Positions 33,563 to 53,395 of a stretch of 64,000 nt of DNA are shown one piece after another. The stretch is from the NCBI GenBank assembly GCA_949283575.1, contig CASDSU010000031.1, forward strand, positions 1-64,000, written 5' to 3'. The stretch comes from an uncultured Eubacteriales bacterium. GTDB taxonomy: Bacteria; Bacillota; Clostridia; TANB77; UBA1234. Positions within the stretch are counted from its first letter, which is position 1. Every line of letters begins with the position of its first letter. The notes under the pieces were generated by a model. The model ran no database searches, was not told the origin of the DNA, and was given only the letters and a program-made list of their open reading frames with translations. A program made the translations under genes and the position numbers.

Positions 33563-33580
33563 TAATTTGGAAATTGCATT

Positions 33581-33820: not shown

Positions 33821-33873
33821 AGCAAGAAAGATTACATTTTTTCTTCAGAAGAATTCATATTTCGAGAAATCCC

Positions 33874-34002
33874 GAGCTTAAAGATAAGTTGTTTGGAATA
33901 TTTGCTATATGCTCAAATTCAAACACACGAGTTTTTGAAGAAGAAACACTGTGCATTCATAATCACAACGAAGGCTTGTATACATTTGTACTCACTGTGT
34001 AA
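33874..34002 (+). pseudogene. C-terminal fragment of an unidentified protein
   Basis: A plus-strand frame without start reads ELKDKLFGIFAICSNSNTRV, then EETLCIHNHNEGLYTFVLTV and stop. Codon pattern and residue mix look like genuine protein, and it opposes the LysR remnant. No family recognised. It lies in a 600-base stretch that otherwise holds only remnants and the palindrome at 34036. Confidence 0.3.
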
Positions 34003-34035
34003 GCACGTATCAAATTCTTTTTTAAATGAACACTA

Positions 34036-34103
34036 GGGACGTCTGTTAAATGTGCATTTTTTGTAATTATTTTACAAAAAGTGAAGCATGTAACGGACGT
34101 CCC
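34036..34103. repeat. REP-like 68-base imperfect palindrome with GGACGTCC arms
   Basis: GGGACGTCTGTTA at the left pairs with TAACGGACGTCCC at the right (one T-G pair), and the inner part TTTTTTGTAA pairs with TTACAAAAA. The outer arm shares GGGACGTCC with the hairpin ends of the transposase unit at 14852-15776. It is a candidate non-autonomous relative. There is no T run right after the right arm, so it is not an ordinary terminator. Confidence 0.6.
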
Positions 34104-36077: not shown

Positions 36078-36585
36078 ATGGATAAAAATACAATTTTAAA
36101 AGATGAAAAAAACTCAAATTTTATAAAACAATATTCATCATATCTAAAATACAAAGAAAAAGGTATAAATAATGATTTGATTAGTTTTTATTATCAATTC
36201 AATCATTTGAAAAACATATACAGACAAGGATGGTTAAAAGGATTATTAGATATAAGTAAGTTTGTAGATGTTGAAAGTATAGCTGATCATACATGGAGCG
36301 TTGCAATGCTAGCAATGAGCTTAATAGAAAAGTATAAACTTGATTATGATATTGCGAAGTGTATGAAACTAGCGCTTGTGCACGAACTTGGAGAAATTTA
36401 TACGGGTGATTTTACGCCTAGAGATAATATTACAAAAGAAAGAAAACATGAACTTGAAAGAGAATCTATAGAATATGACGTCAAGTATAGACAATCTAAC
36501 TTTGCCATATTTAAAAGAAATTGTGGATGAACTAAAAGATATAGCCCAAGGTAACGAAATAACATATTGTTTAAAAAATGAATAA
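36078..36585 (+). pseudogene. HD-domain (YfbR-like) nucleotidase, frameshifted
   Basis: ATG 36078 follows GGGAGG. The HD-fold signatures are ESIADHTWSVAMLAMSL (first His) and MKLALVHELGEIYTGDF (HE), like the 5'-deoxynucleotidase YfbR/HD-hydrolase family. After RKHELERESIE, near 36470, the frame shifts: the listed frame ends at 36530, while a neighbouring frame carries NLTLPYLKEIVDELKDIAQG and ends at 36585. The region in between is shorter than in family members and the last metal ligand region seems lost. Cluster with an ITPase and a Nudix gene directly downstream suggests a role in clearing unwanted nucleotides. Confidence 0.65.
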
Positions 36586-36603
36586 AAAAGGGACGTGAGA
36601 ATA

Positions 36604-37134
36604 ATGAAAATATTAATGGGAACAAAAAATCCAGGAAAAATAGAAGGTGCAAAGCAAGCATTTGAAAAGTATTTTGATAATGTTGAAATAGAAGGTATTT
36701 CAGTAAGTTCAGAAGTTAGCAATCAACCTTTAAATGAAGCGATAATTGAAGGCGCAAAAAATAGAATAAAAAATTTAAAAGAATATGCGATGAAGAATGA
36801 TATAAAAGCTGATTTTTATGTTTCAAGTGAAGCTGGAATTACAAATTATTTTGAGGAATGGGTAGATATAAATGTGGTAGTGATTGAAAGTGTTGATGGA
36901 TTGCAAAGTACTGGAACAAGTCAAGGTTTCCCAATCCCAGAAAAATATATGGATGAAATAAAAGCAACTGAACTTGGAAAAGTTATGGATAAAATATGGG
37001 GATTGGATGAATCGGGTAAAGGTAAAGGTGGTATAAGTATTTTAACTAAAAATGAAATATCAAGAATTGATTTGACAAGAAATGCATTTATTATGGCACT
37101 AACGAAACATATAAATGGAGATACATGGAGGTAG
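36604..37134 (+). CDS. DUF84/YjjX-type inosine/xanthosine triphosphatase
   Basis: I choose ATG 36604 (MKILMGTKNPGKIEGAKQAF) over GTG 36595. The TKNPGKIEGA start and the middle VSSEAGITNYFEEWVDINVV fit the DUF84 family, which hydrolyses ITP and XTP, as does the end LTRNAFIMAL. Length 176 aa is normal. The 3' end overlaps the ribosome site of the Nudix gene. It removes deaminated purine nucleotides from the pool. The HAM1-type genes at 32990 and 57667 are distant relatives with the same job. Confidence 0.85.
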   Translation: MKILMGTKNPGKIEGAKQAFEKYFDNVEIEGISVSSEVSNQPLNEAIIEGAKNRIKNLKEYAMKNDIKADFYVSSEAGITNYFEEWVDINVVVIESVDGLQSTGTSQGFPIPEKYMDEIKATELGKVMDKIWGLDESGKGKGGISILTKNEISRIDLTRNAFIMALTKHINGDTWR

Positions 37135-37138
37135 AATT

Positions 37139-37708
37139 TTGGAAGAATTAATTGATGTTCTAGATTGTGATGGTAATAAAACCGGAGAAATAAAGCCTAG
37201 ATCTGAAATAAAAAAAGCGGGTAATTATCACCGAGCTATAGCTGTATGTATTGTAAATGATAAAAAAGAAGTATTGATGCAAAGAAGAAGTAAAAATAAA
37301 AAAGTATATGCAAATTTATGGAGCATTTTCGTAAAAGGGCACGTAATGTCTGGTGAAACCTCAGAAGAAGCATGTATACGAGAAATCTCAGAAGAACTAG
37401 GTATATCAATAGATAAGTGTGAGCTTAAGTATTTGTATACAATAAAAGAAGAATTAATAATAAGTGAAGATTACATAGAAAGAATATTTTTTGATGCTTT
37501 TATTGTACATAAAAACATTGATATAAAAGATGTAAAAGTTCAAGAAGAGGAAGTTGAAGAGGTAAAACTAATGTTTTATAAAGAGATTGAAGAACTTGTT
37601 TTAAATAGTAACTGTATGGTTCCTAACAAAAATGATTATGAAAAAATGTTTAAAATAATTGAATTTCGGAGATTCATATTAAAAGCAAAAAATGTCATTA
37701 ATTGTTGA
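37139..37708 (+). CDS. Nudix hydrolase
   Basis: TTG 37139, seven bases after GGAGG, gives MEELIDVLDCDGNKTGEIKP, the usual start of IDI-like Nudix proteins; the ORF could extend upstream but not with a ribosome site. The Nudix box is complete: GHVMSGETSEEACIREISEELGI spans it, with the REISEEL core at about residues 86-92. The protein of 189 residues resembles the isopentenyl-diphosphate isomerase-like Nudix group whose real substrates vary. Coupled to the DUF84 gene upstream. Confidence 0.88.
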   Translation: MEELIDVLDCDGNKTGEIKPRSEIKKAGNYHRAIAVCIVNDKKEVLMQRRSKNKKVYANLWSIFVKGHVMSGETSEEACIREISEELGISIDKCELKYLYTIKEELIISEDYIERIFFDAFIVHKNIDIKDVKVQEEEVEEVKLMFYKEIEELVLNSNCMVPNKNDYEKMFKIIEFRRFILKAKNVINC

Positions 37709-37733
37709 AAAGAAAAATATAAATGTATATAAT
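37705..37733 (+). promoter_or_regulatory. Promoter of VWA gene (copy 1 of duplicated promoter)
   Basis: TTGAAA (37705-37710), spacer 17, then TATAAT (37728-37733). The same layout and similar spacer occur at 40413-40441 before the second VWA gene. Confidence 0.7.
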
Positions 37734-37806
37734 TTTATAAAGGTATTTTGTTGTTTGAACGGAAACGAATTATTTTATAAATAGTTCATAAGGGGGATAT
37801 ATACTA

Positions 37807-40344
37807 ATGAAAAAGAAAAGTTTTTTTATAATTTCAATACTGTTAATGTTTATGCTATTTACAGTTTCATATGCTGCAGAAGAAGAAACGATAAAAAAGA
37901 TTGTAAGCATTGTTTATGACGATTCGGGTAGTATGATATCATTTAATAATTATTGTTATTCAGACTATGCTCTTCAAATTCTTACTGCATCATTGGGAAA
38001 AGATGATGAATTAAATATTGTAAAAATGTCAGATTATTATAGAAATAATGAAATTGGTTTAACTAATCAAAAGGAGAGACAAAAATATATTGATGAAATT
38101 AGAGGATATTCACACGTTGGTGGAACTCCTTTTGACTCTGTTAATACTGCTAAAAATTGGCTGATTAGAAAAAGTGAAACATATAAAGAAGAGGCAGATT
38201 ATTGGCTTGTTGTAATAACAGATGGTGCTTTTTTTGATTTGCCTATGGATATAGATAATTATCTACAAGATTTAAATAATTCATTTAATAATCTAAATTA
38301 TGAATTTGTTTTACTTAGTATAGGAACGAGTTATGATACAACATTACAAGATGCAGTTGAGGTTAGCACCAATAGCACTAATGTTACTGCTCAAGATAAA
38401 CAAAGCGTTTATGAATCAATATTAGAAATTTCTAATATGATAAATAATGGAGCTAGTGATAAGATAGCTAAAGCGGAACAAATTGGTGAAAAGACAGTAA
38501 GAATAAATTCAAAATATCCGCTTAGAAAAATGATGTTGTTATTACAAAATACAGATAATCGTGTTGTTAGTATTACAAGAAGTGGATCAAAATTGGATGC
38601 GGAAACATATGATGTTTCATATCCGTTAGAAGATTTAAAAGGTTCGCTTACTCATGTCGTAGATCCAAAAGAAGAATATTTAAATTCTGGTTACTATGAA
38701 GTTTCGTTCGCAAAAGAAATTGATATGAATAAACTTACTGTTTTATGTGAAGCGTACGTAGAGTGTAAAATAAGTATTGTTGATGAAAATGATCGTGTTC
38801 TTAATGATGCTCAAATGAATTTCTTAACACCAAGTAAAATTGTAAGAGTAAAATGTGAATTGTATAATGCTGTTGATGGAAAACCTTTAGAATATAATGA
38901 TGAAACTGCGAATGTAAAGATAGAATTAATAAATGAAAAAAATAAATATCCACTTACATTTGATAAAAGTAAAAATGCATATTATGGCAGTTTAACATTA
39001 CTTGAAGAAAAGAATAACATATATGCAATTGCAGAATCAGAAGATTTGTTTAGGATAAAATCTAATGTTATTTTTGTTGATACACTAAATGCTTCGGCTA
39101 ACATTGAAAAAAATGAAAATGATATGTTAAAAATTGAAGTTCCATATTCATCTGATAAAGAATATAAACAAGTACACCAATTTATTTTTAGTTTTGTTGA
39201 AAATATGGATTATAATGTTGCTCAAGATTTTGAATTACAACTTCTTAATGTTCCTGATGGTATTGAGTTTGAATATGATGGTAAAAGGTATGGTAATAAT
39301 GATAAAATTCCAATGATAAAAGAATTTGGAAAAAATTATATCTTAAATATTTATTCAAATAAAGATTACAAAGAAAAAGAAGAAAAAAGAGTAACGTTGA
39401 AGATTTTGACAGATGAATATAATCAAACGATTTACTGGACGTCAAATGGTGTTGATGAAGAATTCTTATTGATTGTTCCAAAATTATATCCAATACAATT
39501 AATAAAGAAAAACATAGGAAATGAAATTGATGTTCAAGAAGAAACGTTAGAATTTAAAATTGCAAGAACAGCAGACGAGAGCAATATTTTAAGTATAGTG
39601 AATTACATAAATATTGAGGACATAAAAAGTCTTAAAGATAACAGTACAATGACTTCTGGCTTTCCATATACTGTAGAACAAGATGAAGAAGACAATATCT
39701 TAAGATTGAAATTTAAACCGAATATATTTGCGCTATTAAAAGGCAATACAGTTGAAGTAGAAATAGAAGTTGAACTTAATAATAGTTTGGAAAAAACAAC
39801 TTATAGCGAAGAATTTACTTTGACTAATATTGATGTGATTGGTATATTAACTCCATACATAATACTTGCAATAATATTGATATTGTTAATGGGATATGTG
39901 TTCAAAAAGAAATTTAATAAAAAATCACAAATTACAATAACAGAAAACGGCGAGAGTATTTCTTATGCATTAAAACCAAACTTGGTTACAGTTTTAGTTC
40001 CATATATGGCGCATAAAACAAAAATAGGTATGATTGAGTTTAAAGCTGGAAAAAATAGTGAACTTATATATTCGGCTAAAAACTTAGATATTTTAAAAAT
40101 AGATGGAGAACCTCTAGAAGAATATAAAGAAAGTCATAAAGTAAATATTCAAAAAATGATAATGAAGAAAGATTTTTCAAGTATTAATATTAATGCGTTT
40201 GATGTTGAACAAAAGTATGAATATTTAACAAAAGAAGTTGATATGGCAAGTGGTGATGACAGTTATCTTGATGACTATTCAGATAATTATTCAAGTGATA
40301 GTGATTATACAGCTGGTGGAGATATGGATGATTATCAATTTTAA
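37807..40344 (+). CDS. Secreted, membrane-anchored VWA-domain protein
   Basis: ATG 37807 is behind AAGGGGGAT. The 845-residue protein has a signal peptide (FFIISILLMFMLFTVSYAA). A VWA domain spans about 30-210 with a complete MIDAS: VYDDSGSMIS, a Thr in HVGGTPFDS and the Asp in VVITDGAFF. A long beta-rich ectodomain includes a module VPDGIEFEYDGKRYGNNDKI. A membrane helix lies near 675-700 (ILTPYIILAIILILLMGYVF), followed by a cytosolic domain of about 120 residues and a very acidic tail (DDYSDNYSSDSDY). It probably binds a ligand outside through a metal ion and contacts cytosolic partners inside. It begins the VWA/tubulin gene group, though a terminator separates it from the next gene. Confidence 0.85.
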   Translation: MKKKSFFIISILLMFMLFTVSYAAEEETIKKIVSIVYDDSGSMISFNNYCYSDYALQILTASLGKDDELNIVKMSDYYRNNEIGLTNQKERQKYIDEIRGYSHVGGTPFDSVNTAKNWLIRKSETYKEEADYWLVVITDGAFFDLPMDIDNYLQDLNNSFNNLNYEFVLLSIGTSYDTTLQDAVEVSTNSTNVTAQDKQSVYESILEISNMINNGASDKIAKAEQIGEKTVRINSKYPLRKMMLLLQNTDNRVVSITRSGSKLDAETYDVSYPLEDLKGSLTHVVDPKEEYLNSGYYEVSFAKEIDMNKLTVLCEAYVECKISIVDENDRVLNDAQMNFLTPSKIVRVKCELYNAVDGKPLEYNDETANVKIELINEKNKYPLTFDKSKNAYYGSLTLLEEKNNIYAIAESEDLFRIKSNVIFVDTLNASANIEKNENDMLKIEVPYSSDKEYKQVHQFIFSFVENMDYNVAQDFELQLLNVPDGIEFEYDGKRYGNNDKIPMIKEFGKNYILNIYSNKDYKEKEEKRVTLKILTDEYNQTIYWTSNGVDEEFLLIVPKLYPIQLIKKNIGNEIDVQEETLEFKIARTADESNILSIVNYINIEDIKSLKDNSTMTSGFPYTVEQDEEDNILRLKFKPNIFALLKGNTVEVEIEVELNNSLEKTTYSEEFTLTNIDVIGILTPYIILAIILILLMGYVFKKKFNKKSQITITENGESISYALKPNLVTVLVPYMAHKTKIGMIEFKAGKNSELIYSAKNLDILKIDGEPLEEYKESHKVNIQKMIMKKDFSSININAFDVEQKYEYLTKEVDMASGDDSYLDDYSDNYSSDSDYTAGGDMDDYQF

Positions 40345-40360
40345 AAATTAGATAAACAAA

Positions 40361-40391
40361 AATGGCGGAGTGAAAACTTCGCTATTTTTTT
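40361..40391 (+). terminator. Terminator after first VWA gene
   Basis: AATGGCGGAGT (40361-40371) pairs with ACTTCGCTATT (40376-40386) with G-T pairs, followed by TTTTT. Confidence 0.7.
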
Positions 40392-40412
40392 GTCTAAAGA
40401 AGAAATAAAATG

Positions 40413-40441
40413 TTGAAAAAAGAATTGTAAAAGTATATAAT
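40413..40441 (+). promoter_or_regulatory. Promoter of second VWA gene and tubulin operon (copy 2)
   Basis: TTGAAA (40413-40418), spacer 17, then TATAAT (40436-40441). The leader ends in the same TACTAATGAAAAAGAAA text as copy 1. Confidence 0.7.
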
Positions 40442-40516
40442 TTTCTTGTGTTATAATATCGGTAGACCCGTAAAAAAGAATTATGTTTGAATAATTCATG
40501 GGGAGGAATTGTACTA

Positions 40517-43500
40517 ATGAAAAAGAAATGTTGCTTTATGTTTCTGGTACTGATAATATGCATGACTTTTGGTGTTGTATATGGAGCGGAAAATGAAATT
40601 ACACGAAAAGTAGTAAGTGTTGTTTATGACGATTTTTATTCAGTGAAGAAAGAGAGTAATAAAGAAAATTCGAATTACATACTTCAAATGATTACGTCGT
40701 TACTAGAAAGTGATGATAAGTTGAGTGTTGTAAAAATGTCAGAAGTTTATAAAAGTTTTGAGGTTGACTTGGAGAATCAAGAAAGAAAACAAACTTTTAT
40801 TGATGAAGTGAAAGATTATCAAAGTGTTATTAATACTCAATTTGAAGGAATGAATACGGCGAGAGAATGGCTGGTTAATGAAGCGTCTTATAATGAAGAT
40901 ACTGCAAAATATTGGTTAGTTGTAATTGCAAATGGAAGCTTTAAAGACAAATCAAAAGAATTAGAAAAATACTTAAAGGATATCGAATTTGATTTTAGAG
41001 ATTTTGAATTTGATATTTTATTTTTAGATCTAAGTAACCTTCAAGACACGGCGATAAAGGATGCAGTTGAAAATTCTAAAAATTCAAAATATATGACCAT
41101 AAATACTGAACAAAATACATATGATTCTTTTTTTGAAATAGCTAAATTGTTTAATATTAATGTTAATAATCAGTTGGTTTATATAAACAAAGAGAATGAT
41201 AGTGTTATAAAAGTGAATGCAAAATATCCTTTGAAAAAATTAAGTATTGTAATACAAGATTGCAATAATGAGGTGAAGTTTGTAACTCATAATAGCAGTG
41301 AAGTGAATTTGGAAAATCATTATATATATTCAACAGATAATTCATTAGTTGGTTCTGTGACAAATGTTATAAATAATGCAGTAAATTATTTAGATGCAGG
41401 TGAGTATGAAATTGAATTTAGAGGAAGTGTTGAGGAAGACAAAATACTGATTTTGCATGAGTCATATTTTAGACCGAAAATTTGTTTTGTTGATGAACGT
41501 GATAATTTGCTAAGTCCAGAAGACCAATGGATACATTTGACTGCTACAGATCGTATAAAAGTAAAATGTGAGTTGTATAGTGCTTTTGATGATAGCAAAC
41601 TTCCTTATTGTGAAGAAAACAAAAACTTTGATGTAGATGTGCTAATTGAAGAAAGAAGATATAGTTTGAAATTTGATGAAAATAAAAATGCATATTATGG
41701 TTATGTACCACTTGAAAATCCGTGGAACATTATGTATGCGTTAGTTGAAAAAGGTGAAAATTTTTCTTTAAAGTCCAACATTTTGGCTGTTAATGTATAT
41801 GCTAGTCCTGAAGAAGTTCCATCGCAAGATGAATTTTTTTTAGATTCTGCTGAAATGATAAAAATGGAAATACCATATTCTAATAGTGAAAAATATATTT
41901 TTAGAAATAAGTTCCTTCCTAAATGTGAGGGAGGAGATGAATATGTTTCTGAAAGTATCTATTACCAAATTCAGAATATTCCAGATGGTGTAATTTTTGA
42001 ATTTGCAGGAAAATGTTATCGAAGTGATGAAAAAATACCTGCTGATTTAAAAAAAGGAAAAATTCATGAAATATCTATATATTCTAATAAAGATTATATA
42101 GAAAGAGATGCACAAGAAATGATAGTGTTTATATCATATGCAAATGGATTATTTTTTCCAATATATTGGGTCAATACTGGTAATGATAATAGAACATGAT
42201 GGGAGAAAATATACCGACAACGAAGATATACCAATAATTGTTGAAAAAGGCAGAATATATACTTTGAAAATTTATGCTAATGATGAATATGTTGAGATGG
42301 ATAAAAAAGCATAATTTTGAAATTAAAAAGTGATGTTTTTGAACAAGAGCTTTCATGGAGTACAACGGGTAATACAGAAGAATCTATAGTGATTGTGCCT
42401 GAAGTATATCCTATAAAAGTAACAGAAATTGAAACTACAGATAAAATATTTTCATCTTATTCTTTTTCTGGTGATGAAAAGAATATTTTTAGGTATACTT
42501 TTATGATAGAGGAAGATAATGCTAAAAACAGTGGCGAAAAATTTGAAATACATCTATTCGATATGCCTGAAGGAATTTCTTTTGAATATGACGGAAAGCG
42601 ATATAAGAATATAGTGAGTATAGAGAGGCTGAAGAAAGAAATGTAATTTTAAAACTACAATCAATTCTTCCTAGCCAAGAAATATCTCTGAATGGGAAAG
42701 GGAATACAGAAAAAGTAATTACTATTTGTCCCCCAAATAACCCAATACATGTATTTAATAAAGGTACAGAGAAAATAGACATTCAGAAAGAATTTTTAGA
42801 ATTAGAAATTGCAAGAGTTGATGATATTCAAAGTTTAAATGTTATTGAAAATGTCAGTTTGAAGAATATAAAGAGTATTGAAGATAATAGTTCATTTTTT
42901 AGTGGATTTACATATAAAATTGAAAAAGACGTGGAAAACGATGTTTTAAAAATTAAATTTAAACCAAATCTATTTTGTTTAGTAAAAGATGATAAGGTAA
43001 ATGTAGAAATTAAAATGGAGTTTGATAACGATTTTGAAACAGCAATGTTTGTTCAAGAAATTGATATTGAAAATATCAATATAATGGTTGTGTTGAAGCC
43101 GTGTATAGTTGCATTTGAAATTTTACTTTTTATAATGGGATACATCGTTAAAAGAAAGTTTGATCCTGATGCTCAGATAGTCGTTACAGAAGATGGAGAT
43201 TGCATGGCATATGGATTAACCCCAAGTTTGATAAGTGTTGTAATACCGTATATGGCTCATAGAGCCAAGGTTGGTGTGGTTGATTTTAAAGCTTCAAAAA
43301 ATAAAGAACTTATATGTTCTACAAATGAGTTTGAAATTTTAAAGGTAAATGATGAACCATTTGTAGAATATAGAAAAAAACAAGGAATAGATAATAAAAA
43401 AATTGTAATGAGAAAAGGTAAATCAAGCTTTGTTATAAAAGCTTATGATAGCATGCAAAGATATTAATACTTAGATAGTGGTAATGAAACGACAGATAAA

Positions 43501-43545
43501 GAATATAAACTTGATGAAATTTATTTGGAAGATGATCAAAATTAA
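40517..43545 (+). pseudogene. Decayed paralogue of the VWA protein
   Basis: ATG 40517 starts MKKKCCFMFLVLIICM (signal peptide). The protein follows its neighbour closely along the whole length. Its MIDAS is already lost: DDSGS is DDFYS, GGTPF is INTQF and TDGAF is ANGSF. The ectodomain module (EFDGKRY type) occurs three times rather than once, for example PDGVIFEFAGKCYRSDEKIP and PEGISFEYDGKRYKN. The frame breaks near 42190, 42310, 42640 and 42830, and a TAA follows MQRY at 43465. In-frame text (YLDSGNETTDKEY) then runs to 43545. The membrane helix and acidic tail are still readable. The 5' half (570 codons) could still be translated as a secreted fragment. Confidence 0.85.
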
Positions 43546-43563
43546 AAAGGAGTGTAATGATTT

Positions 43564-46500
43564 ATGGGAAAAAGTGATGTAACGGCAACATTACTTGTTG
43601 GACTTGGAGGACTTGGAAGTAGTATAGTTAATAGAATTTATGGTGAGGTTAAGAAGAATGGACAAGATAAGAAGGTAGAGGCTGTTATTATTGATACAGA
43701 TATAGGAAGCTTAAATAAAAATACAAATATTGATCCTATATATAGAATTCAAACAAGTGAAAACTCTACAGTAAAAGGGTTGTTAGATAGAGATCCAAGC
43801 TGCAAAGAATGGTTCCCAGAACATCCTGTTATTTTGAATTCACAAATTTTAGAAGGCGCTGGAATGGTAAGAGCCATTTCAAGACTTGCTTTGAAAAATG
43901 CGATAAAAAGCAATAAATTATCCGTTTTGAATCAGATTGGTGATAATCTTTTTGAAGTTGGAAATGAAACGACAACTCGTGGTATAAGGGTAATGATAAT
44001 TTCATCGCTTATGGGTGGAACAGGTTCAGGTATCTTTTTACAAGTTCCATTACTTCTTAGAGATATTTTAGAAAATAAATATGGAACAGATAGAATCGAT
44101 ATAATGGGAACTTTTATACTTCCAGATGTTATATCTAAGGTTATACCAACAGAAAGAAAAACTGATATATATGCAAATGCGTATGCGTCATTTAAAGAAT
44201 TACAAGCCATTATAACATCATTAACAAAAAATGAATTTGGTGTTGATTTAGAATACAAACCAGAGCAAGTTAACTCAGAAGGTATAAGAAATATAACTGT
44301 AGATAGATTACCATACGATTTTTGTTATTTGTATGACAGCAAAAACATGAACAGTGAAGTTTTAAGTACACTTGATGATTATTTAAATTTAATTATTAGA
44401 GATGTATATGCAATGTTATTTGGACCTATTTCAGATGGAATATTCTCTAAGAAAATTAACACGATAAGAGAACTTATAAAGGGACAAGGTCAAAACCTAT
44501 ATAGTGCAATGGGCGATTCTATGTTGGTATATTCATATGAAGATATGGTTAATTATTGTTCGCTTTCATGGATAAGTAATTCTTTATCAGAAAACATGTT
44601 AAAACTTGATAATGAATATAAAAAACTTGATGAAGAATACAGAAAGAATCAAAGAAAAGGTATTGTATCTCCAAAAGTTGAGCGTTCTAAAATTTTCGTT
44701 GATTGCTTTGAAAATTTAGTAAAAGAAGAGAACAATTATTTTAAAGGAATCATGAATAGCATTGTTTACAAAGATCCTGTAAATCCAGCACTTTCATATG
44801 ATAAACCTGTGGACATGCTAAAAGCATTTGATGCAAAAATAATGGAACGTATTGAAACTGATATGGATGTAGCTCCAATACAAGCTGAGATTAAGAAAAA
44901 TATCAACTTCATTGCTAATATGAATGATGTTGGTTCTAATGATGCTTTTGGTGGTCGTGTTAGAATGTGTGAAGACAATATAGTTAAGTTTAAAAATATT
45001 GTTGAAACCGCAGCGAAGTCAAAGTGTGCTATTGATGTAAAAGGTATTGCGGGTCTTATTGATGATTCGCCAAGCGGACTATTATATGATTATATGCACA
45101 ATGGTAACGAATTCATTCATGTACTTGGTGTTAGATATTTGATGTATAAGGTTAAATATCTTGCTGCTAGTACAATGAATAAATTATCTGAAGAGGTAAA
45201 TAGATTTGCAGGAGCTTATGCTAGAGCCGATAAAGGTTTCACAATGAAAGATAAAGGCAATGGTACAGCTTCTCAAAAATTAAATGAAGTACAAAACGAA
45301 AAAGGTTTATTTAATAGAAGAATAAATAATTTCAAAAAAGAATATATAGACAACGCAAATGCTAAAGCTAGTATGATAAGAAAATATTACATATCAAAAC
45401 GTAAATTAGAGTCATATAAAGTTTTAGTAGAAATAATTGATGGAGTTTCAAAAGAGTTTGAAAACTTCTTCGAACATTTGAAAGCATATGAAGATACAAT
45501 AAATATAAGTAAAGAAAAAGAATACAATAAAACAAATAATCAAACTGGAAAAACAGTTATAAATGTTTTAGCAAAAGGTGAAGAAAAAGAAGCTATATAT
45601 AATCAAATAGAAGGACTACTTGACTTTAATTCTTTACAAGCAAAATTAGCAAGTTTCATGTTTGAATCGATATTTAAGAACTATAAAGTTAAACTTAACA
45701 ATGCAAATATAGCAAATAATACTTTTGGAAAAACGTATACAGCAATTGAAGAAGAAATAATGAAAAATTGTCGTCAAGAATTAATCGAAACGGCAAGAGA
45801 TGTTTTAGATATTGATATCGTTGATGCTTTAATTAAAGAAGCTAACTTAAATGGAATTGATTATAAAGAAAATATAGAAAACAAATTAAAACAAATTTGT
45901 AGACTTGTTTCTCCATGGATCATAACGAATGATAATGTAAAAACACATGATGATATTATATTTGCAATGAATCCAAAAACATATGAAAAATTACCAGATA
46001 AGGGTATTATATCTACACTTCTTAAAGATAAAGGTAATGTTTCTGCAGAACAAAATTCAGAAGTTAGTGAAAAAGAAATTTCTCTTGTAATGCTTAAATA
46101 TGGTATGAAAATAACTGATATTAAAGGATTTTCAAGTACGGCAAGTTATGCAGATCAAGGAGAAATGTTTAAAGCATATAATGAAGTAATAAAACAAATC
46201 CAAGATTCACATGCAAGTACAATTTTAAATAGGGTTGTTACACCGCATATTGATAAGCGTTGGCATGTAATGCTTCCATCAATTGATCAAGAATATGAAA
46301 GCATCAAACAAATAGAACAGTCAAAAGCTTACCTTGCAGGACTTGCACTTGGAATGTTTAAAATTAGAATGAAAACTGATGGAACAAATAACAAGACATT
46401 CTTATTCTATTCACCAAAAAATACAATACCAGCAAAGGTAACTATTGGTGGTATTCATGGTATGAAAGAAATAACAGATTCATATTGGGAACTATTAGAT

Positions 46501-46944
46501 GCAGTAAAATATAATCCACAAATGAGCAGAACAATAATGGATAAATATAATGAAGAGTTAGAAGCAAGTAATAATACTATGGGAATAAATGTACAAAATA
46601 TAGTTGATCTTCCAATAATCGCGAGCTTGTGTGATATTTATAGAGATTCAAATGATAACATGAGTGTTATAGATGCAATGATTTCAGCTTATTCAGTGGT
46701 TCCTGCTACCGAAAAACAAAGTACGGTTACTTTGAAAAAGATAACGGAACTTATAAAAGCTTTAGAAAATATTATTGAAGAAAATGTTAAAATCTTTGCA
46801 CTTAGCGAGATTCAAAAAGATGAAATGTTTAACAAAGTATTAAATCATTTATTATCAAAGAGTAGACTTGTAGAGAATTTGTCAGAAGATACAATCGAAA
46901 ATGTTTATATTGTGGAACCAATTAAAAATTTAATTAGAGGATAA
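43564..46944 (+). CDS. Large tubulin/FtsZ-like GTPase (Tubulin_2 type)
   Basis: ATG 43564 is behind AAAGGAGTG. The N-terminal GTPase domain has VTATLLVGLGGLGSSIVNRI (nucleotide-binding first loop), then VEAVIIDTD. The tubulin signature loop is SSLMGGTGSGIFLQVP (residues about 150-165), a variant of GGGTG(S/T)G. The remaining 700 residues are mostly helical with coiled-coil stretches and no membrane segment. At 1126 residues it is far longer than FtsZ (about 380) and fits the FtsZ-like/Tubulin_2 proteins predicted to shape membranes. It is cytosolic and may form filaments. It is followed after five bases by a membrane protein and lies behind VWA genes, so it is probably the motor or scaffold of an envelope machine. 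Confidence 0.85.
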   Translation: MGKSDVTATLLVGLGGLGSSIVNRIYGEVKKNGQDKKVEAVIIDTDIGSLNKNTNIDPIYRIQTSENSTVKGLLDRDPSCKEWFPEHPVILNSQILEGAGMVRAISRLALKNAIKSNKLSVLNQIGDNLFEVGNETTTRGIRVMIISSLMGGTGSGIFLQVPLLLRDILENKYGTDRIDIMGTFILPDVISKVIPTERKTDIYANAYASFKELQAIITSLTKNEFGVDLEYKPEQVNSEGIRNITVDRLPYDFCYLYDSKNMNSEVLSTLDDYLNLIIRDVYAMLFGPISDGIFSKKINTIRELIKGQGQNLYSAMGDSMLVYSYEDMVNYCSLSWISNSLSENMLKLDNEYKKLDEEYRKNQRKGIVSPKVERSKIFVDCFENLVKEENNYFKGIMNSIVYKDPVNPALSYDKPVDMLKAFDAKIMERIETDMDVAPIQAEIKKNINFIANMNDVGSNDAFGGRVRMCEDNIVKFKNIVETAAKSKCAIDVKGIAGLIDDSPSGLLYDYMHNGNEFIHVLGVRYLMYKVKYLAASTMNKLSEEVNRFAGAYARADKGFTMKDKGNGTASQKLNEVQNEKGLFNRRINNFKKEYIDNANAKASMIRKYYISKRKLESYKVLVEIIDGVSKEFENFFEHLKAYEDTINISKEKEYNKTNNQTGKTVINVLAKGEEKEAIYNQIEGLLDFNSLQAKLASFMFESIFKNYKVKLNNANIANNTFGKTYTAIEEEIMKNCRQELIETARDVLDIDIVDALIKEANLNGIDYKENIENKLKQICRLVSPWIITNDNVKTHDDIIFAMNPKTYEKLPDKGIISTLLKDKGNVSAEQNSEVSEKEISLVMLKYGMKITDIKGFSSTASYADQGEMFKAYNEVIKQIQDSHASTILNRVVTPHIDKRWHVMLPSIDQEYESIKQIEQSKAYLAGLALGMFKIRMKTDGTNNKTFLFYSPKNTIPAKVTIGGIHGMKEITDSYWELLDAVKYNPQMSRTIMDKYNEELEASNNTMGINVQNIVDLPIIASLCDIYRDSNDNMSVIDAMISAYSVVPATEKQSTVTLKKITELIKALENIIEENVKIFALSEIQKDEMFNKVLNHLLSKSRLVENLSEDTIENVYIVEPIKNLIRG

Positions 46945-46949
46945 TAAAT

Positions 46950-48974
46950 ATGATTAAGTTATGTATAGACAATACGTCTTCACTTCATGAATTTCACATG
47001 TATGAACCATATTTATATGGTGTTATGAAAAAGAAAAATTGTTTTTTGATAAATGATTTTTCGAAAAACAATAGTGATATCGAAAATTTCGATATCACTA
47101 TTCGTGATGCTGAAAGTATATTATTAGAGCACAAAGGAACAGATTATGAAGTTACAATTATTGCAGAATTGCTAGAAGTTGACAAACCTTTGGTTCAAAA
47201 ATTATACGAAATAGATAAATACATAACAAGTAAATTTACAAAAAGTCAAATTCAAAAAACTAAAAATATTACGATCATTCTTCTGGATTACACAGGTAAT
47301 AGTTATATAGATTTTAAGGAAGAATTGTATGTTGCTGAAGAAGAAAGTGAATTGTTTTTTACTAAAGAAGAATTACTTGCTTGTGAGAAAAAATTAAAAA
47401 ACACCAAAGACGTTGAAAAATTTATAAATGAGCTGATTCGTATAAGAGATACAAAAGTTGTTTGTAGCGAAAATGAGTGGTATTTATATATTTTTTCTAA
47501 AATGTTAAAACATTTTAATGATCCTCATTTACTAGAGTTAAATGGAGATACGCCATTAGATATTATAGATATCTTTAAAAAATTAATGTCTCATTTTGTA
47601 AAAAAAGAGATATTAGATACTAAATTAATTTTAAAGCATGATATGTATTCAGAAAAAAATCTATATTCAAAAGATAGTAAAAGTTTTACTGATATGAATA
47701 AACTTATTGCTTTACTTTCTTTTGATATGGAAGAGTTTTTGACAAAATCAAAATCTATTTTTTATAAAGGTATTTATAATGTACAAATTGGATTAGATGA
47801 AGAAAAAGTAAAGAGAATGATAATGCAATATTCTGAAAATTTAAAAGCGCAGTTAGATATGTTAAATCAAAATAAGCCAAGTAAAATAGAAGTTGCTAGA
47901 AGAGTAATGCCGAACATCTCTTTAAGAAATATTTATTTAGAACCAGTCAAAGTAAAACCAGAAAGATTAACTTTTTTTAGAAGTAGTAGGAATATACAGT
48001 ATTTAGACAGGATTGAAAAAAATCTTACAATATCTATAAACAAAAGAATAAAAAGAGCAAAAAGTCATAACGTTCAAAGTATATGTGATTTACGAACACT
48101 AAGATATGTTGATGAAAAAACTCTTTCAAAAGAAAAATTATCATTGATAGAAATTCGAGATAGAATAGAAGAAAAAGCGAACGAGTATAAAAGAAAAAAC
48201 AGAGAGGTATTTAATAGCAGAACTGATTATTATGAAATACTAGAAGATTATTTGAATAAGCAAAAAGCTCAAAAAAATGTGATACTAGAAGAACTTAACA
48301 AAAAGTTGAAATTAAAAAATTTTGCGTTTGCAAATATTGTTCTATATGTTATTTTGGGATGTATCATTCTAGCTAGTTGCCCAGAGCTTGTGACAAAGAT
48401 ATCAGAAGTAAAGAATCTTTTATTAACGCTTGGATATATTGCTGTAGCTGTCTTTATTACTACTCTTGGAAATTTGATAGTAGATAACATAAAAATAAAT
48501 AAAAAGATTGATGAATATGTGAAATTTGTTAATGGGTATAATTCAAGATTGCAAATAAATAGCAATGAAGAAATAAAAAAATTATCGGCTACATATGAAC
48601 TAATAATTTTAAATAGCGATATAGAGTATTATAAAAAACAATATGATAAATTATTAAATTTAATAAGCAAATATGAATTTCATATTTCTCAGCTTGAAAA
48701 ACATATAAACATAGCTAAGAGATTATGCTTAAGAGTAGGTGTTAAATTTTTTGATATTGTAGTAGCAAATGATACTAAATTTGATGAAAAAAATGTTGAG
48801 GTTGATATCAACAAAGATGTTTATGAAAATGATTGTTATTCAGTAATGCATTTTCTATTTGAAACAAAAGATTATTGTATGATGCTTAATAGTGGTGAAG
48901 TGATAGAAAAAGTTGGGTTAGAAACATATATAAAGAGTATAAACTTTACAGAGGATGAGGTGTATAGATTCTAA
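46950..48974 (+). CDS. Unknown membrane/coiled-coil protein of tubulin operon (674 aa)
   Basis: ATG 46950 starts five bases after the tubulin-like gene; no strong ribosome site, so translational coupling is likely. The first 440 residues are soluble and charged, and a long coiled coil lies before and after the membrane part. Two adjacent membrane helices near 455-505 (FANIVLYVILGCIILAS and LTLGYIAVAVFITTLGNLI) form a hairpin with both ends in the cytosol. The last 150 residues are again soluble, ending in YKSI-like beta strands. Its stop overlaps the next start (TAATG). I recognise no family. The layout suggests a membrane adaptor for the tubulin-like protein. Confidence 0.75.
   Translation: MIKLCIDNTSSLHEFHMYEPYLYGVMKKKNCFLINDFSKNNSDIENFDITIRDAESILLEHKGTDYEVTIIAELLEVDKPLVQKLYEIDKYITSKFTKSQIQKTKNITIILLDYTGNSYIDFKEELYVAEEESELFFTKEELLACEKKLKNTKDVEKFINELIRIRDTKVVCSENEWYLYIFSKMLKHFNDPHLLELNGDTPLDIIDIFKKLMSHFVKKEILDTKLILKHDMYSEKNLYSKDSKSFTDMNKLIALLSFDMEEFLTKSKSIFYKGIYNVQIGLDEEKVKRMIMQYSENLKAQLDMLNQNKPSKIEVARRVMPNISLRNIYLEPVKVKPERLTFFRSSRNIQYLDRIEKNLTISINKRIKRAKSHNVQSICDLRTLRYVDEKTLSKEKLSLIEIRDRIEEKANEYKRKNREVFNSRTDYYEILEDYLNKQKAQKNVILEELNKKLKLKNFAFANIVLYVILGCIILASCPELVTKISEVKNLLLTLGYIAVAVFITTLGNLIVDNIKINKKIDEYVKFVNGYNSRLQINSNEEIKKLSATYELIILNSDIEYYKKQYDKLLNLISKYEFHISQLEKHINIAKRLCLRVGVKFFDIVVANDTKFDEKNVEVDINKDVYENDCYSVMHFLFETKDYCMMLNSGEVIEKVGLETYIKSINFTEDEVYRF
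47070..47102. repeat. Perfect 33-base palindrome inside a coding region
   Basis: AATAGTGATATCGAAA (47070-47085) and TTTCGATATCACTATT (47087-47102) are perfect inverted copies around one base. It lies in codons 41-51 of the 674-residue membrane protein gene, 120 bases after its start. Confidence 0.8.
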
Positions 48975-51964
48975 TGGATATAGAAGCTTTTTTAGGAAAT
49001 TATATAACTGTATATTACTTTTTATTGCTTTTCTGCGTTGGAATCTCTGCGTCATTGAATCAACCTAAAGAAAAGCGTATTAATCAGACAAAATTAACAA
49101 AATTTTATATAATATATATTGTTTTATCGACAGTGATTTTGTACGCTTGGTTTTCGTTTGCAGATGTGTTACCTATAAGCTACCAAAATTCGGTGTGGCT
49201 TACATTAGCTGTAAAGTTATCAGAATGGTTTGCAGAAAAATATGCTAAATTCACACTTTGGGTAATAGGTATTGGAATTGTTGTTAAATTAATATCTAAA
49301 GTTGGTAAAACTATTATGAGTAGCACTTCAACGTATACGCCATCATATTCATACAAATCAAAAAGTAATACAGAATCGAAGCCAATAAAAAGAAATTTTC
49401 TTATAAAATTATTTTATAAGGAAACTGAAAGTGTAAATGAGCTTGGTGTTTTAGTTGGCAAGATATCGAGAATTATAGCTCTTGCTCTTATGATAGTTTA
49501 TATTAGTTTACCAATTTTTGAATATTTTGATATATATATGTTGTTTTCAAAAGTAGGTTTGCTATTATTTATAGTTACGTTTTGGGAACTATATTATTCA
49601 TTGCAATATAAGCAAAAAGAAGAGAAAAAAGATATAAGACATTTGAAAATAAAAGAACCTAATATATTACAAGCAGCTTTAAAACAGTTACTGAAGTTAA
49701 GTGAAATTGAAATTTTAGAGGAAAAAACTTTAGGAAGAAAAGATATAACTTCAAGTGGACCTGCAGCATTAATTTGTGAAGTTCCTAACTTAAATGAGTT
49801 AAAAGAACTTAATTTGAAAGTTATGAATGGAGCTTTTTTTGAAAATAAAAAAGTATTGGTTATTTGTTTAAATGATAAAACAGCAACTGAATATCATAAA
49901 AAACTTACAGCTTTCAACAGAGAATATGATGGTAAATTAGTGATAAAGCTTATAACTAGTGATGATAAACTTTTTGATAGTTCGGTTGATATTTATGTGA
50001 CTGCAATAGAGAATTGCTTTGGAAATATAAAATTATTAAGTGAAATAGATGCAATTGTTATAGAAGACTATGACGAAATTCTGCTTAATAAATTAGAACT
50101 ATTGAGGGCATTAGGTAGTATTGTAAAAATGGGAAATCCAGAAATGAATTACATCATTTTAACTTATATGTTACATGGAATTGAAGCGACAATCAAAAGT
50201 TTATTATTTGTTACAGATATTTCTTGTTATTGTCCAACTAATAGATACAGTTCTAAGAAAGTATTAATAAATGTTTGGGAAAAAAATGATAATTTTATTA
50301 CCGAAAAAGTCTTTGGAAAAGCTACACAAAATTTAGGTTCATTGGTTCCATTATCGTTATTAAGTGTAAAATGGCAACCTGAAAGAATATTGATGATTTC
50401 GAAAAATGAGCCATTAGACTTTGAACTTAACGAATTAAATGCTATGCGAAATTTGTCAGAAAGAAATGTAGATAATGTAGAATTAAAATTGTTAAGTGAG
50501 AAAGCGAAGATAAGTTCGAAAGAAAGATATTTTAATAATATAAAGAAAAACTGGATTATTACTGATGATAAAAGCAATGTGTATGAAAAAATCTATAAAT
50601 TATCATTAATTAATGGTGTAGAGAATAATTTAAATATTGTTTCTGAGCAATATATGCTTAGAGATTATATGGTAGCGACGTATAATGAAAACAAATCAAG
50701 ATTAAAATCATTTTTGACGTATGTACCATATGAAGTGAATAGTGGTAAAGTTGTTTTATATAATCTTTTGTTGCAACTTACTAACTTTGGTGTCAAAGAA
50801 AGTATAATCGCTAATATATTAAATGAAAATGGTATTCACATTAAAATTGGTAAAGGTAATAATGCAAAGTTAATATCAGATAAGCTAAATAAGTTTATAA
50901 AACAAGAATTTAATATTGATGTAGATTTATATTCGTACATAACAATTCAAGAATTAAAAGAAAAATATGTTTTTGATATGTCGAAAAAACAATATATTGA
51001 AGAAGAGAAGAATTATATTTTAGATGAATTGGCGTTAGAACTATTTCCAAATGAAATATTTAGTAGAGTAAGTTTTGTAAAAGATGGTTTTGAGTTGGAT
51101 ATTGAGAAAGAATATGCATATAATTTTTATCAAAAATATTTGCCTGGTCAAAAACATTATTTAAATGGCTATGTGTATGAAATAAAAAATACGATTGAGA
51201 CGGATGATGGTATAAATGCAGTTGTTGAAGCTAGTACTAATTATGATAATCATACGTATAGACAAGATAGAAAAGTTGAAATAGTAGCTCCTTTTGTTCC
51301 AACAGAAACAAAATTGAATAAATATGCAAATCTTACTTTGAAATATCAAATGGGAAAAATGAATTATCAAATAAGAACAGAAGGGTACTTTGAATTTAAA
51401 AATGGTATTTCAAAAATCCCAGGAGAATATAGATATGTTGGTTTAGATTCAAAAGATATTTTTAAAACAACAAGAAATCATGTAAATGCAGATGCTTTAA
51501 AATTGGAATTTGCGATGAATGAGACTTTGAAAAAAGGTATACCAACTGTAGAAACAGATGAACTTGGAGAGAAAATGGCATTTTTGATTACTGAAATATT
51601 AGTCTCATTACTTGGTGAAAACTCGAAATATATTCAAGTAAAATCAGTGAAAAATTCCACTTCAGACACTCTGTTTGGAGAAACATGGGTAGCACCAATC
51701 GAAATAGCAGGGTATTCAACAGAAAATATTGAAATATACATATTAGAGGATACTCAAATTGAACGTGGACTAATTGACATGATTTATAAAAATTTAGATA
51801 ATATATTAAAGATGATTCATGAATATTTAGCTTGGGTATTTGGGGCTGAACATAATTTGGCTGAAGAAAGAGATAAGTTCTTGAGAAATGTTGATATAGA
51901 CGAAAAGTCATTAATGAAATATAAGAGAATATTTAATATATTGAAAAATGCGATAATGCAATAA
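48974..51964 (+). CDS. Membrane protein with degenerate helicase-like core (996 aa)
   Basis: The start ATG 48974 overlaps the previous stop. Four to five membrane helices lie in the first 215 residues (FLLLFCVGISASL, IIYIVLSTVILYAWFSF, FTLWVIGIGIVVKL, IALALMIVYISLPIF, VGLLLFIVTFWELYY). From about 220 a two-lobed soluble part recalls SF2 helicases. GRKDITSSGPAALICEVPNL stands where Walker A would be but lacks GxGKT. KVLVICLNDKTATEYHKKL and DAIVIEDYDEILLNKLELL (DE box-like) are in order, then MNYIILTYML. The C-terminal 500 residues are of unknown fold. It would be a membrane-anchored, probably ATP-independent relative. The helicase comparison is weak and mine alone. Confidence 0.65.
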   Translation: MDIEAFLGNYITVYYFLLLFCVGISASLNQPKEKRINQTKLTKFYIIYIVLSTVILYAWFSFADVLPISYQNSVWLTLAVKLSEWFAEKYAKFTLWVIGIGIVVKLISKVGKTIMSSTSTYTPSYSYKSKSNTESKPIKRNFLIKLFYKETESVNELGVLVGKISRIIALALMIVYISLPIFEYFDIYMLFSKVGLLLFIVTFWELYYSLQYKQKEEKKDIRHLKIKEPNILQAALKQLLKLSEIEILEEKTLGRKDITSSGPAALICEVPNLNELKELNLKVMNGAFFENKKVLVICLNDKTATEYHKKLTAFNREYDGKLVIKLITSDDKLFDSSVDIYVTAIENCFGNIKLLSEIDAIVIEDYDEILLNKLELLRALGSIVKMGNPEMNYIILTYMLHGIEATIKSLLFVTDISCYCPTNRYSSKKVLINVWEKNDNFITEKVFGKATQNLGSLVPLSLLSVKWQPERILMISKNEPLDFELNELNAMRNLSERNVDNVELKLLSEKAKISSKERYFNNIKKNWIITDDKSNVYEKIYKLSLINGVENNLNIVSEQYMLRDYMVATYNENKSRLKSFLTYVPYEVNSGKVVLYNLLLQLTNFGVKESIIANILNENGIHIKIGKGNNAKLISDKLNKFIKQEFNIDVDLYSYITIQELKEKYVFDMSKKQYIEEEKNYILDELALELFPNEIFSRVSFVKDGFELDIEKEYAYNFYQKYLPGQKHYLNGYVYEIKNTIETDDGINAVVEASTNYDNHTYRQDRKVEIVAPFVPTETKLNKYANLTLKYQMGKMNYQIRTEGYFEFKNGISKIPGEYRYVGLDSKDIFKTTRNHVNADALKLEFAMNETLKKGIPTVETDELGEKMAFLITEILVSLLGENSKYIQVKSVKNSTSDTLFGETWVAPIEIAGYSTENIEIYILEDTQIERGLIDMIYKNLDNILKMIHEYLAWVFGAEHNLAEERDKFLRNVDIDEKSLMKYKRIFNILKNAIMQ

Positions 51965-51987
51965 AAGATATTTTAGGAGGATGAAAT

Positions 51988-52509
51988 TTGGATAATGTTA
52001 TTATGGTTTATACAAAAGAAAATCCTTTTAAATTAGAATTTTTTGAAAAAACGTTCACAACAGAAGTTTTAATTGGTAAGAACGGAGCAACAATAAATAA
52101 GCAGGAAGGCGATGGGAAAACACCGATAGGTGAATTTGAGACAGGAATAGTTTTTGGACTGCATGAAAGAGAAAATGTGAATTTAGATGAATCAGTGCAA
52201 TATGTAAAAATAAATGAAAATTTATACTGGATTGATGACGTGAATTCAAAGTATTATAACCGATTGATAGATGTTACGAAAGTAAATGTTGATTGGAAAA
52301 GTGCAGAGCGTTTGATTGATTATAAAGTTCAATATGAATTTGCATTGGAAGTAAAAACAAATCCTCAAAATATTGCGGGAAAAGGAAGCGCCATATTTAT
52401 TCATTGTAGCGATGGAAATCAAACAGCAGGATGTATAGCTCTTCCAAGAGAAAAAATGATAGAATTATTGTCAAAAATAGACAAAAATACAAAAGTTTGT
52501 ATCGTATGA
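51988..52509 (+). CDS. YkuD-type L,D-transpeptidase domain protein
   Basis: TTG 51988 is seven bases behind TAGGAGG. The 173-residue protein consists of the catalytic domain only: GDGKTPIGEFETG, then the active-site block GSAIFIHCSDGNQTAGCIAL with the His and the nucleophilic Cys (HxnGC). It fits the ErfK/YbiS/YkuD group that links or modifies peptidoglycan with 3-3 bonds. No signal peptide or membrane helix precedes it, which is unusual for an enzyme acting outside. As the last gene of the tubulin/VWA operon it ties the system to the cell wall. A terminator follows. Confidence 0.82.
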   Translation: MDNVIMVYTKENPFKLEFFEKTFTTEVLIGKNGATINKQEGDGKTPIGEFETGIVFGLHERENVNLDESVQYVKINENLYWIDDVNSKYYNRLIDVTKVNVDWKSAERLIDYKVQYEFALEVKTNPQNIAGKGSAIFIHCSDGNQTAGCIALPREKMIELLSKIDKNTKVCIV

Positions 52510-52531
52510 TGGTACGATAAATAAAAAAGAG

Positions 52532-52570
52532 AACCCCTCAATTCCTTGTGCAGGAACAAGAGGGGTTTTT
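52532..52570. terminator. Bidirectional terminator
   Basis: AACCCCTC (52532-52539) pairs with GAGGGGTT (52560-52567), with an inner TTCCT-AGGAA pairing and A/T runs on both sides. It ends the tubulin operon and the leftward small genes. Confidence 0.88.
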
Positions 52571-52583
52571 CTGTTAATCAGGA

Positions 52584-52691
52584 TTATTTTTCCCGATATT
52601 CCTCAAGCCAGGCATCGACGTCAATGACACCGAATCCACCACGGCCATTCGCGGCATTAACAGTAGAGATTGCTGCCATTGCACCAGCCAT
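52584..52691 (-). CDS. Alanine/glycine-rich microprotein (35 aa)
   Basis: On the minus strand ATG 52691 lies eight bases behind AGGAGG. The product is MAGAMAAISTVNAANGRGGF followed by GVIDVDAWLEEYREK: a small-residue N-terminal half and an acidic helix. Codons GCC, GCG, GGC and GTC dominate, unlike neighbouring genes. It follows a 54-codon gene by 19 bases on the same strand and ends at a shared strong terminator. The start and ribosome site are convincing. Function unknown; size and make-up are like a small peptide precursor (leader plus core) or a toxin, but no processing genes are adjacent. Confidence 0.6.
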   Translation of the reverse strand: MAGAMAAISTVNAANGRGGFGVIDVDAWLEEYREK

Positions 52692-52710
52692 TATCAAAAG
52701 CCTCCTTAAA

Positions 52711-52875
52711 TCAGTAGTCGAAGTTCTTCTTGTTGTTCGCTCGCTGGCGGTTGTAGCGCGTTTTTGGCTCTACGATACGGCTCTTAAACCGACCGGCTTC
52801 CTCGCGTACACGTTCAGCACGAGCTTCAGGGGATTCCTTGTAGTACTTAGGCAGGGTAGACTTCTTCTTGCTCAC
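52711..52875 (-). CDS. Very basic microprotein (54 aa)
   Basis: On the minus strand GTG 52875 follows AAAGGAG by eight bases. The product reads MSKKKSTLPKYYKESPEARA, then ERVREEAGRFKSRIVEPKTR and YNRQRANNKKNFDY. It is rich in Lys and Arg and has no membrane segment, like a ribosome- or nucleic-acid-associated protein. Codon use is GC-rich (CGC, GCC, CTG) and matches the microprotein gene 19 bases downstream, so both were probably acquired together. A candidate minus-strand -10 element, TATACT, lies near 52960. Confidence 0.6.
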   Translation of the reverse strand: MSKKKSTLPKYYKESPEARAERVREEAGRFKSRIVEPKTRYNRQRANNKKNFDY

Positions 52876-53099
52876 AGGGCAAAACTCCTTTCAAAAATCG
52901 CTTGAGGTGATGTTCCCAGGGGTTTTATCTCGGAAAGTTGAGAATAAACATGGAAACAGTATAGCACATCTATACATTTTACATAATACCATAAACAAAC
53001 ATAATTGTAAAGATAAGGAAAAATAATTTACATAATGTATAGCTAAAAATACTTTATTATGATATAATGCATTCGAAAATAAAAAAGGAGAGAAAATTA

Positions 53100-53360
53100 A
53101 TGGAATTAAAAGAATTAGAAGAAGAATTAATAAAAATCAAAGAAAGAAATAAAAAAGTAGAGCTAGACAAAGCTTGGGAAACAAGCTTAACAAGAAAACT
53201 TTGCATTTGTATACTTACATATGCAGTTGTAGTAATATATTCACATCTAATAAACAAAATTAGCAACGTATGGCTAAGTTCGCTAGTGCCAGTAATTGGT
53301 TTTACATTATCAACACTATCATTAAAACTTGTAAGAAATGTTTGGGAAAAAAATAAATAG
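53100..53360 (+). CDS. Small membrane protein with N-terminal coiled coil (86 aa)
   Basis: ATG 53100 is behind AAAGGAG. Residues 1-35 form a charged helix (ELKELEEELIKIKERNKKVE). Two hydrophobic segments follow (LCICILTYAVVVIYSHLI and VWLSSLVPVIGFTLSTLSL), and then a short basic end. It is probably a two-helix inner membrane protein with a cytosolic coiled coil. I do not recognise the family. No clear terminator separates it from the phosphoesterase 36 bases downstream, so they may be cotranscribed. Confidence 0.65.
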   Translation: MELKELEEELIKIKERNKKVELDKAWETSLTRKLCICILTYAVVVIYSHLINKISNVWLSSLVPVIGFTLSTLSLKLVRNVWEKNK

Positions 53361-53395
53361 AATGTGTTAAAATTATTGCAAGAGGAGGATGGTTT

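Follow-up and report, generated by a model that had tools for sequence, protein, structure and literature searches.

A tubulin-family GTPase, a VWA protein and a predicted membrane-tethered pseudo-helicase in a conserved operon, likely acquired horizontally by a Clostridia bacterium

What does a giant tubulin-like GTPase do next to an extracellular VWA protein and two large membrane proteins that resemble no familiar family? Operons that join VWA and FtsZl1 genes were predicted in 2010 (Makarova & Koonin, PMC2875224), and related GTPase/GAP1-tubulin systems with vWA proteins were described in 2020 (Kaur et al., PMC7159879). FtsZl1 has thus been known as a tubulin branch since 2010, and its function has been elusive partly since its partners had no recognisable domains. 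We analysed such a locus in 64,000 nucleotides (the window) of the genome of an uncultured gut bacterium of the order Eubacteriales and the class Clostridia. The original prediction for this DNA was a machine of VWA sensor, tubulin-like GTPase, two novel membrane proteins and an L,D-transpeptidase that couples an outside signal to a cytoskeletal filament and to wall modification. The features of the locus are as follows (TM, transmembrane segment).

37115..37708, + strand: NUDIX gene, at the left junction of the block below; precedes VWA1
37661..51974, + strand: 14.3-kb block, missing from the same-genus genome G005, which has collinear flanks (blastn and junction alignment)
37807..40344, + strand: VWA1, 845 aa; a signal peptide leads into an extracellular VWA domain whose MIDAS is complete, and a single TM near residue 677 precedes a tail in the cytoplasm
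40487..~43544, + strand: VWA2, tandem paralogue of VWA1; broken, with two or more frameshifts and no remaining MIDAS
43564..46944, + strand: FtsZl1/Tubulin_2 GTPase (TUB), 1126 aa; MGGTGSG; T1, T3 and T4 loops intact
46950..48974, + strand: P674, 674 aa; cytoplasmic apart from a hairpin of two TMs around residues 458-511
48974..51964, + strand: P996, 996 aa; five N-terminal TMs, then a cytoplasmic part with a predicted MrfA/DUF1998 fold
51988..52509, + strand: YkuD-domain protein, 173 aa; flanking chromosomal gene outside the system

The open reading frames, their strand, the tubulin loop MGGTGSG and the MIDAS are all as first described (ORF list, Pfam and homologue columns). So are the spacings of 19, 5, -1 and 23 bases from VWA2 to the YkuD gene, with the end of VWA2 taken as its last stop near 43544 in the ORF list. 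At the base composition of the block, an open frame of 996 codons would arise by chance with a probability < 1e-45. The MIDAS of VWA1 is formed by D38-x-S40-x-S42, T107 and D139, and over 41 aligned homologues these columns hold D/S/S in 40/41, T in 39/41 and D in 41/41. Pfam recognises the VWA domain in homologues only (8/41, best E 8.4e-9), and a VWA-family profile that excludes the window sequence recovers VWA1 (E=1.4e-72). A PDB sequence search with the VWA family gave no convincing match. VWA1 and VWA2 repeat in tandem at a spacing of about 2.71 kb. In VWA2, a short stretch (xDGKRY...I..Y) occurs about three times, in different frames, ahead of the C-terminal part.

Comparison with G005 defines the limits of the block. 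By blastn, two neighbouring stretches of one G005 contig (C24) correspond to window positions 36582-37660 and 52061-53372 at 80-83% identity, and across most of their length the G005 flanks have about 80-93% DNA identity to the window. Homology breaks at 37660 and picks up at the ribosome-binding site of the YkuD gene, near 51975. The junction alignment thus shows that the last codons of the NUDIX gene are derived from the block. In G005 the YkuD gene follows within about 25 bases of NUDIX, and the downstream gene order is then identical to that of the window. The block has a GC content of 27.2%, compared to about 30% in the flanks. We did not identify an integrase in the block, nor a clear target-site duplication at either end. 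Tubulin_2 was found in 0/94 other genomes sampled from the same order, so gain of the block in the window genome is likelier than its loss in G005. Taken together, these sequence comparisons make the block a likely horizontal acquisition. The set had been thought to be under selection given that it is largely free of lesions. This conclusion is not warranted, as the block has the look of a recent arrival and intact genes are then no proof of selection. Upstream, at window positions 33571-34095, about 2.7 kb of G005 sequence corresponds to short matching fragments over about 0.5 kb, which resemble the deletion scars of a gene lost in the window.

The same comparison bears on the putative wall enzyme. 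The YkuD protein has a confident domain match (Pfam PF03734, E=9.6e-11) and no signal peptide; compared with the L,D-carboxypeptidase ElsL it shares the YkuD domain and gives a weak match only (E 0.045). Homologues were found in four same-family relatives (G003-G006), where a Tubulin_2 search found nothing, and a search of the other operon loci with a profile of the window YkuD protein came up empty. The YkuD L,D-transpeptidase (TRANSPEPTIDASE) was therefore ruled out as part of the system, given that the empty site in G005 keeps NUDIX and YkuD adjacent without the block. Wall modification as the proposed output is likewise not supported.

Are the remaining genes a real unit? We scanned named genomes with a tubulin alignment, which gave 79 tubulin loci, and built families from neighbouring ORFs. 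In this sample, where tubulins near the query are over-represented, VWA lies ahead of TUB in 68/78 loci, and P996 and P674 are present in 60/68 and 55/68 loci with enough downstream DNA. The order VWA-TUB-P674-P996 occurs in >50 loci of several phyla, with genes often overlapping; P674 and P996 usually overlap or almost touch. The phyla include Bacillota, Bacteroidota and Pseudomonadota, among others, with hosts such as Bacillaceae, gut Clostridia, Saprospiraceae, Desulfobacca, Myxococcales, Rubrivivax, Treponema and Coriobacteriales. The repeated association that was foreseen for the set thus holds for these four genes and not for the transpeptidase. Judged by gene order and profile matches, VWA, TUB, P674 and P996 form a conserved operon that appears to encode a real multi-gene membrane machine of predicted function, with an extracellular VWA protein and a tubulin-family GTPase as had been proposed. 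Some loci have TIR-LRR, KAP-NTPase, RyR-type, Castor/Pollux-like or FtsK-type ATPase neighbours. At the nearest relative (L025), a phage integrase, an Xre-like gene and an ImmA/IrrE-like gene precede the operon. Three distant FtsZl1 loci (L015, L017 and L022) carry a DO-GTPase instead, and L015 and L022 also carry GAP1.

Assignment of TUB to the tubulin family is strong (Pfam Tubulin_2 PF13809, E=1.6e-54; E=5.5e-221 with a tubulin profile built without the window). In its AlphaFold model (pLDDT 84.9), long helices follow a core of the tubulin/FtsZ/CetZ type. The best Foldseek match is CetZ1 (4b46, E=1.3e-6), and CetZ, FtsZ and tubulin matches range from E 1e-6 to 1e-4; a PDB sequence search with the tubulin family gave no convincing match. 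Over 52 sequences, G13, G15, G16, G18, G151, G152, T153, G154 and G156 are invariant columns of T1 (GxGGxGS) and T4 (GGTGSG). Fold and invariant GTP loops together support the tubulin-family GTPase of the original prediction. An SxEDN motif (E in 44/52, D in 49/52) lies in the stretch that links the core helix to the following one, which is where FtsZ has T7; its assignment to T7 is by secondary-structure order alone, and it is the consensus of its own branch rather than a published defining feature. At this position the window protein reads SKKIN and its relatives L025 and L026 read SNFIN, so that the acidic pair is gone. If SxEDN is T7, with the catalytic role we presume for it, TUB of the window clade may bind GTP yet hydrolyse it poorly. 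In the tubulin tree, the window protein groups with L025 and L019/L026 (SH-aLRT 99) on a long branch (1.66 changes per site), and the GAP1-type loci L015 and L022 lie on a separate branch (support 99). No viral contig matched the tubulin alignment, and plasmid records held distant FtsZl1 relatives only. The one TUB relative among phage records (MT836542.1, 6973-9693) is uninformative and lies on a 9.8-kb unverified and unannotated faecal scaffold labelled 'Bacteriophage sp.', which is possibly a mislabelled bacterial contig.

P674 is weakly conserved, with homologues about 10-18% identical to the window protein. The TM pair is present in 56/60 homologues, and the C-terminal part of the window and L025 proteins aligns with that of the remaining family by hhalign (99.3%, E=1.2e-20). 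A direct scan of genome contigs with P674 found nothing, as the sequence is too divergent. The profile search proposed earlier for P674 and P996 gave family profiles that recur across loci, and no convincing Pfam family for either protein; PDB sequence searches with the two families also gave no convincing match.

P996 is the largest partner of TUB. The window protein is recovered by a family profile built without the window (E=6.9e-66). Its relatives are mostly 1280-1480 aa long. Four to five TMs at the N-terminus are followed by a large middle part and then by a zinc ribbon and HExxH, and 48/61 family members have HExxH plus an invariant downstream Glu. Homologues show weak Pfam matches to the metallopeptidase families DUF6782, DUF6055 and BSP. 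The window protein lacks the C-terminal zinc ribbon and metallopeptidase, and P996 of L025 also lacks the peptidase, so that it is missing in both members of the window clade with a visible P996. We searched the window genome for another peptidase copy, and none was detectable. Both the altered T7 motif and the absent peptidase are shared with relatives (L025 for both, L026 for T7); so they appear ancestral to the clade and do not indicate fresh decay. By these sequences, the window clade is a derived variant without the peptidase and without the acidic T7-like residues of its tubulin.

The fold of the middle part was modelled on the cytoplasmic part of a homologue (L028, pLDDT 88.6) and not on the window protein, which is linked to it by the profile match. 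Foldseek places the DNA-repair helicase MrfA first (6znp, E=5.6e-22 over 880 columns), with other SF2 helicases ranking after it, and the model matches the RecA1-RecA2 plus C-terminal canopy fold of YprA/MrfA. This likeness to the MrfA/YprA (DUF1998) helicases, known from DISARM, Druantia and ARMADA (PMC12458937), is one of overall fold. In contrast to those enzymes, none of the 61 full P996 family proteins has a Walker A motif (GxxxxGK[ST]), and where the P-loop would lie the consensus is about NPFYxDL. The arginine-finger motif VI (QxxGRxGR) is likewise found in 0/61, and the region of the DUF1998 4-Cys cluster has no conserved Cys column. P996 proteins also differ in their five TMs and in carrying a metallopeptidase rather than a nuclease. 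By eye, IYIIEDSxxDLGL of the P996 family looks similar to FYDRYPGGVGL, the DUF1998 motif in MrfA. An hhalign comparison of P996 with a MrfA profile, for which only four truncated MrfA sequences were used, was no better than the reversed control; because this profile comparison is not significant, relatedness is argued from the fold. The model of L028 thus identifies the P996 family as a putative membrane-tethered pseudo-helicase related to MrfA/YprA. This family, the metallopeptidase on most of its relatives and the likely horizontal acquisition of the block were not part of the original prediction.

Fusions indicate the topology of P996 and the enzymes associated with it. In a Treponema MAG (L063, 15716-20800), Subtilase, Big_2 and copper-amine-oxidase-N domains are fused ahead of the membrane part. 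The position of this extracellular-type subtilase before TM1 suggests that the N-terminus lies outside and the helicase part inside. A transglutaminase-like domain is fused to P996 in L084 and L103. The enzymes joined to P996 are thus mainly peptidase-like. In six gut loci, a transglutaminase-like gene (Pfam checked in L048) is separate, follows P996 and has an N-terminal anchor. An extra gene directly downstream of P996 in seven loci (L041, L043, L050, L054, L058, L074 and L097) encodes an FtsK/SpoIIIE-type ATPase domain (Pfam: L050 only); its complete copies are about 970-1170 aa long.

We give about an even chance to the explanation we prefer, that of a horizontally acquired four-component membrane machine in which ligand-gated TUB assembly acts on the pseudo-helicase P996. 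VWA1 would read an extracellular ligand through its MIDAS metal site, and TUB would assemble inside at the membrane, held there by the two-TM P674. P996 would be a non-catalytic clamp or scaffold that is clustered or reshaped by tubulin assembly. In most bacteria, assembly would switch the zinc metallopeptidase attached to P996, at times together with a transglutaminase-like or subtilisin domain, so that the machine would normally act through regulated proteolysis at the membrane. Because the peptidase was dropped and the T7-like acidic residues have changed, the window clade probably relies on a stable GTP-bound assembly and scaffolding, not on cycling and cutting. The separate anchored transglutaminase-like genes fit this explanation poorly, as they look extracellular whereas this domain would be cytoplasmic where it is fused to P996. 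The biological purpose is most likely a stress or conflict response; the patchy distribution, the mobility, the helicase fold and certain neighbours lean somewhat that way. A bolder version, which we consider rather unlikely, is a tubulin-powered surveillance system of a new class at the membrane. Here the ATPase-less tethered helicase fold would still grip nucleic acid or nascent complexes there and, together with the external VWA sensor, would trigger GTP-dependent assembly and release of the peptidase, with the window clade being protease-free.

It is possible, if tentative, that the operon is an anti-phage or inter-bacterial conflict system that senses invasion at the membrane and responds by tubulin assembly, with protection or killing by proteolysis or membrane effects. 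The distribution is patchy (P996 in 3/291 and Tubulin_2 in 13/391 sampled class genomes), and the empty site and the genes beside the L025 operon point to horizontal movement. TIR-LRR, KAP-NTPase, RyR-type and Castor/Pollux-like neighbours at some loci, the assignment of related tubulin and vWA systems to conflict (Kaur et al., 2020, PMC7159879) and the central place of YprA-fold helicases in DISARM, Druantia and ARMADA (PMC12458937) are in keeping with such a role. However, the PADLOC library gave no match at E<=1 (NCBIfam also gave no useful match to the block proteins), and several Neobacillus species have the operon with identical neighbours, unlike a fast-moving defence gene. TIR enrichment is also weak: from about 61 TIR matches in 15 genomes (roughly 39 Mb), we estimate about one locus expected against four observed, and with so small an excess TIR association was dropped as firm evidence. 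Envelope remodelling, in which tubulin filaments shape the membrane or modify the wall, was favoured by the original prediction and by Makarova & Koonin (2010, PMC2875224). The extracellular VWA, the many TMs, the tubulin homologue and the anchored transglutaminase-like genes of the six gut loci accord with it. We find it doubtful for three reasons: the gene for the window's wall enzyme flanks the block, the machine has as its largest domain a helicase fold in the cytoplasm, and the enzyme most often attached to that fold is a peptidase, likewise on the cytoplasmic side.

Could the block instead be a degenerating passenger of the window genome, with no current function? The broken VWA2, the missing peptidase domain, the lost T7 acids and the long tubulin branch would fit. 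Four very long frames remain intact in 27% GC DNA, however, and the peptidase and T7 changes are common to relatives and so ancestral to the clade, which makes this decidedly unlikely. It is very improbable that the block belongs with the GAP1-N2/DO-GTPase tubulin systems described by Kaur et al. (2020). That class, also in Firmicutes, likewise joins a tubulin with coiled coil to an extracellular vWA protein with TMs, and is multi-component and patchy in distribution (PMC7159879). In contrast, the block has one tubulin and not two, and P674 and P996 instead of DO-GTPase and GAP1. Pfam detected neither protein in the block, whereas the same scan finds them in the distant loci noted above, and L015 and L022 branch apart in the tubulin tree. 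As far as sequence profiles reach, this identity is refuted.

The preferred membrane machine shares with the FtsZl1/vWA operons of 2010 the tubulin family, a coiled-coil and alpha-helical C-terminus, an adjacent vWA gene with MIDAS and membrane-associated partners (PMC2875224). Most partners were called lineage-specific there, without recognisable domains, and the main text is silent on helicase and peptidase; here, the partner resolves as a predicted pseudo-helicase, with or without metallopeptidase, that recurs across phyla. The 2025 survey of the YprA family does not mention vWA or tubulin (PMC12458937). In the literature searched, which for the 2010 study means its main text, a membrane pseudo-helicase is nowhere described for FtsZl1 operons, and we found no published experimental test of any member of the system or of FtsZl1 function. 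P996 would represent a YprA helicase fold recruited to the membrane. If the largest partner is indeed a dead DISARM/Druantia/MrfA-type helicase with a zinc peptidase, the question moves from what the filament shapes to what the assembly gates, and this could be tested in culturable Neobacillus strains.

One further family is found near the operon. Three loci have a membrane protein of this family beside TIR-LRR genes (L099:20616-23477, L075:759-5082 and L089:12451-14888), with a weak RyR match in L099 and a TrkA-like match in L021. The same RyR/TrkA-like membrane protein recurs without TIR-LRR in ten loci.
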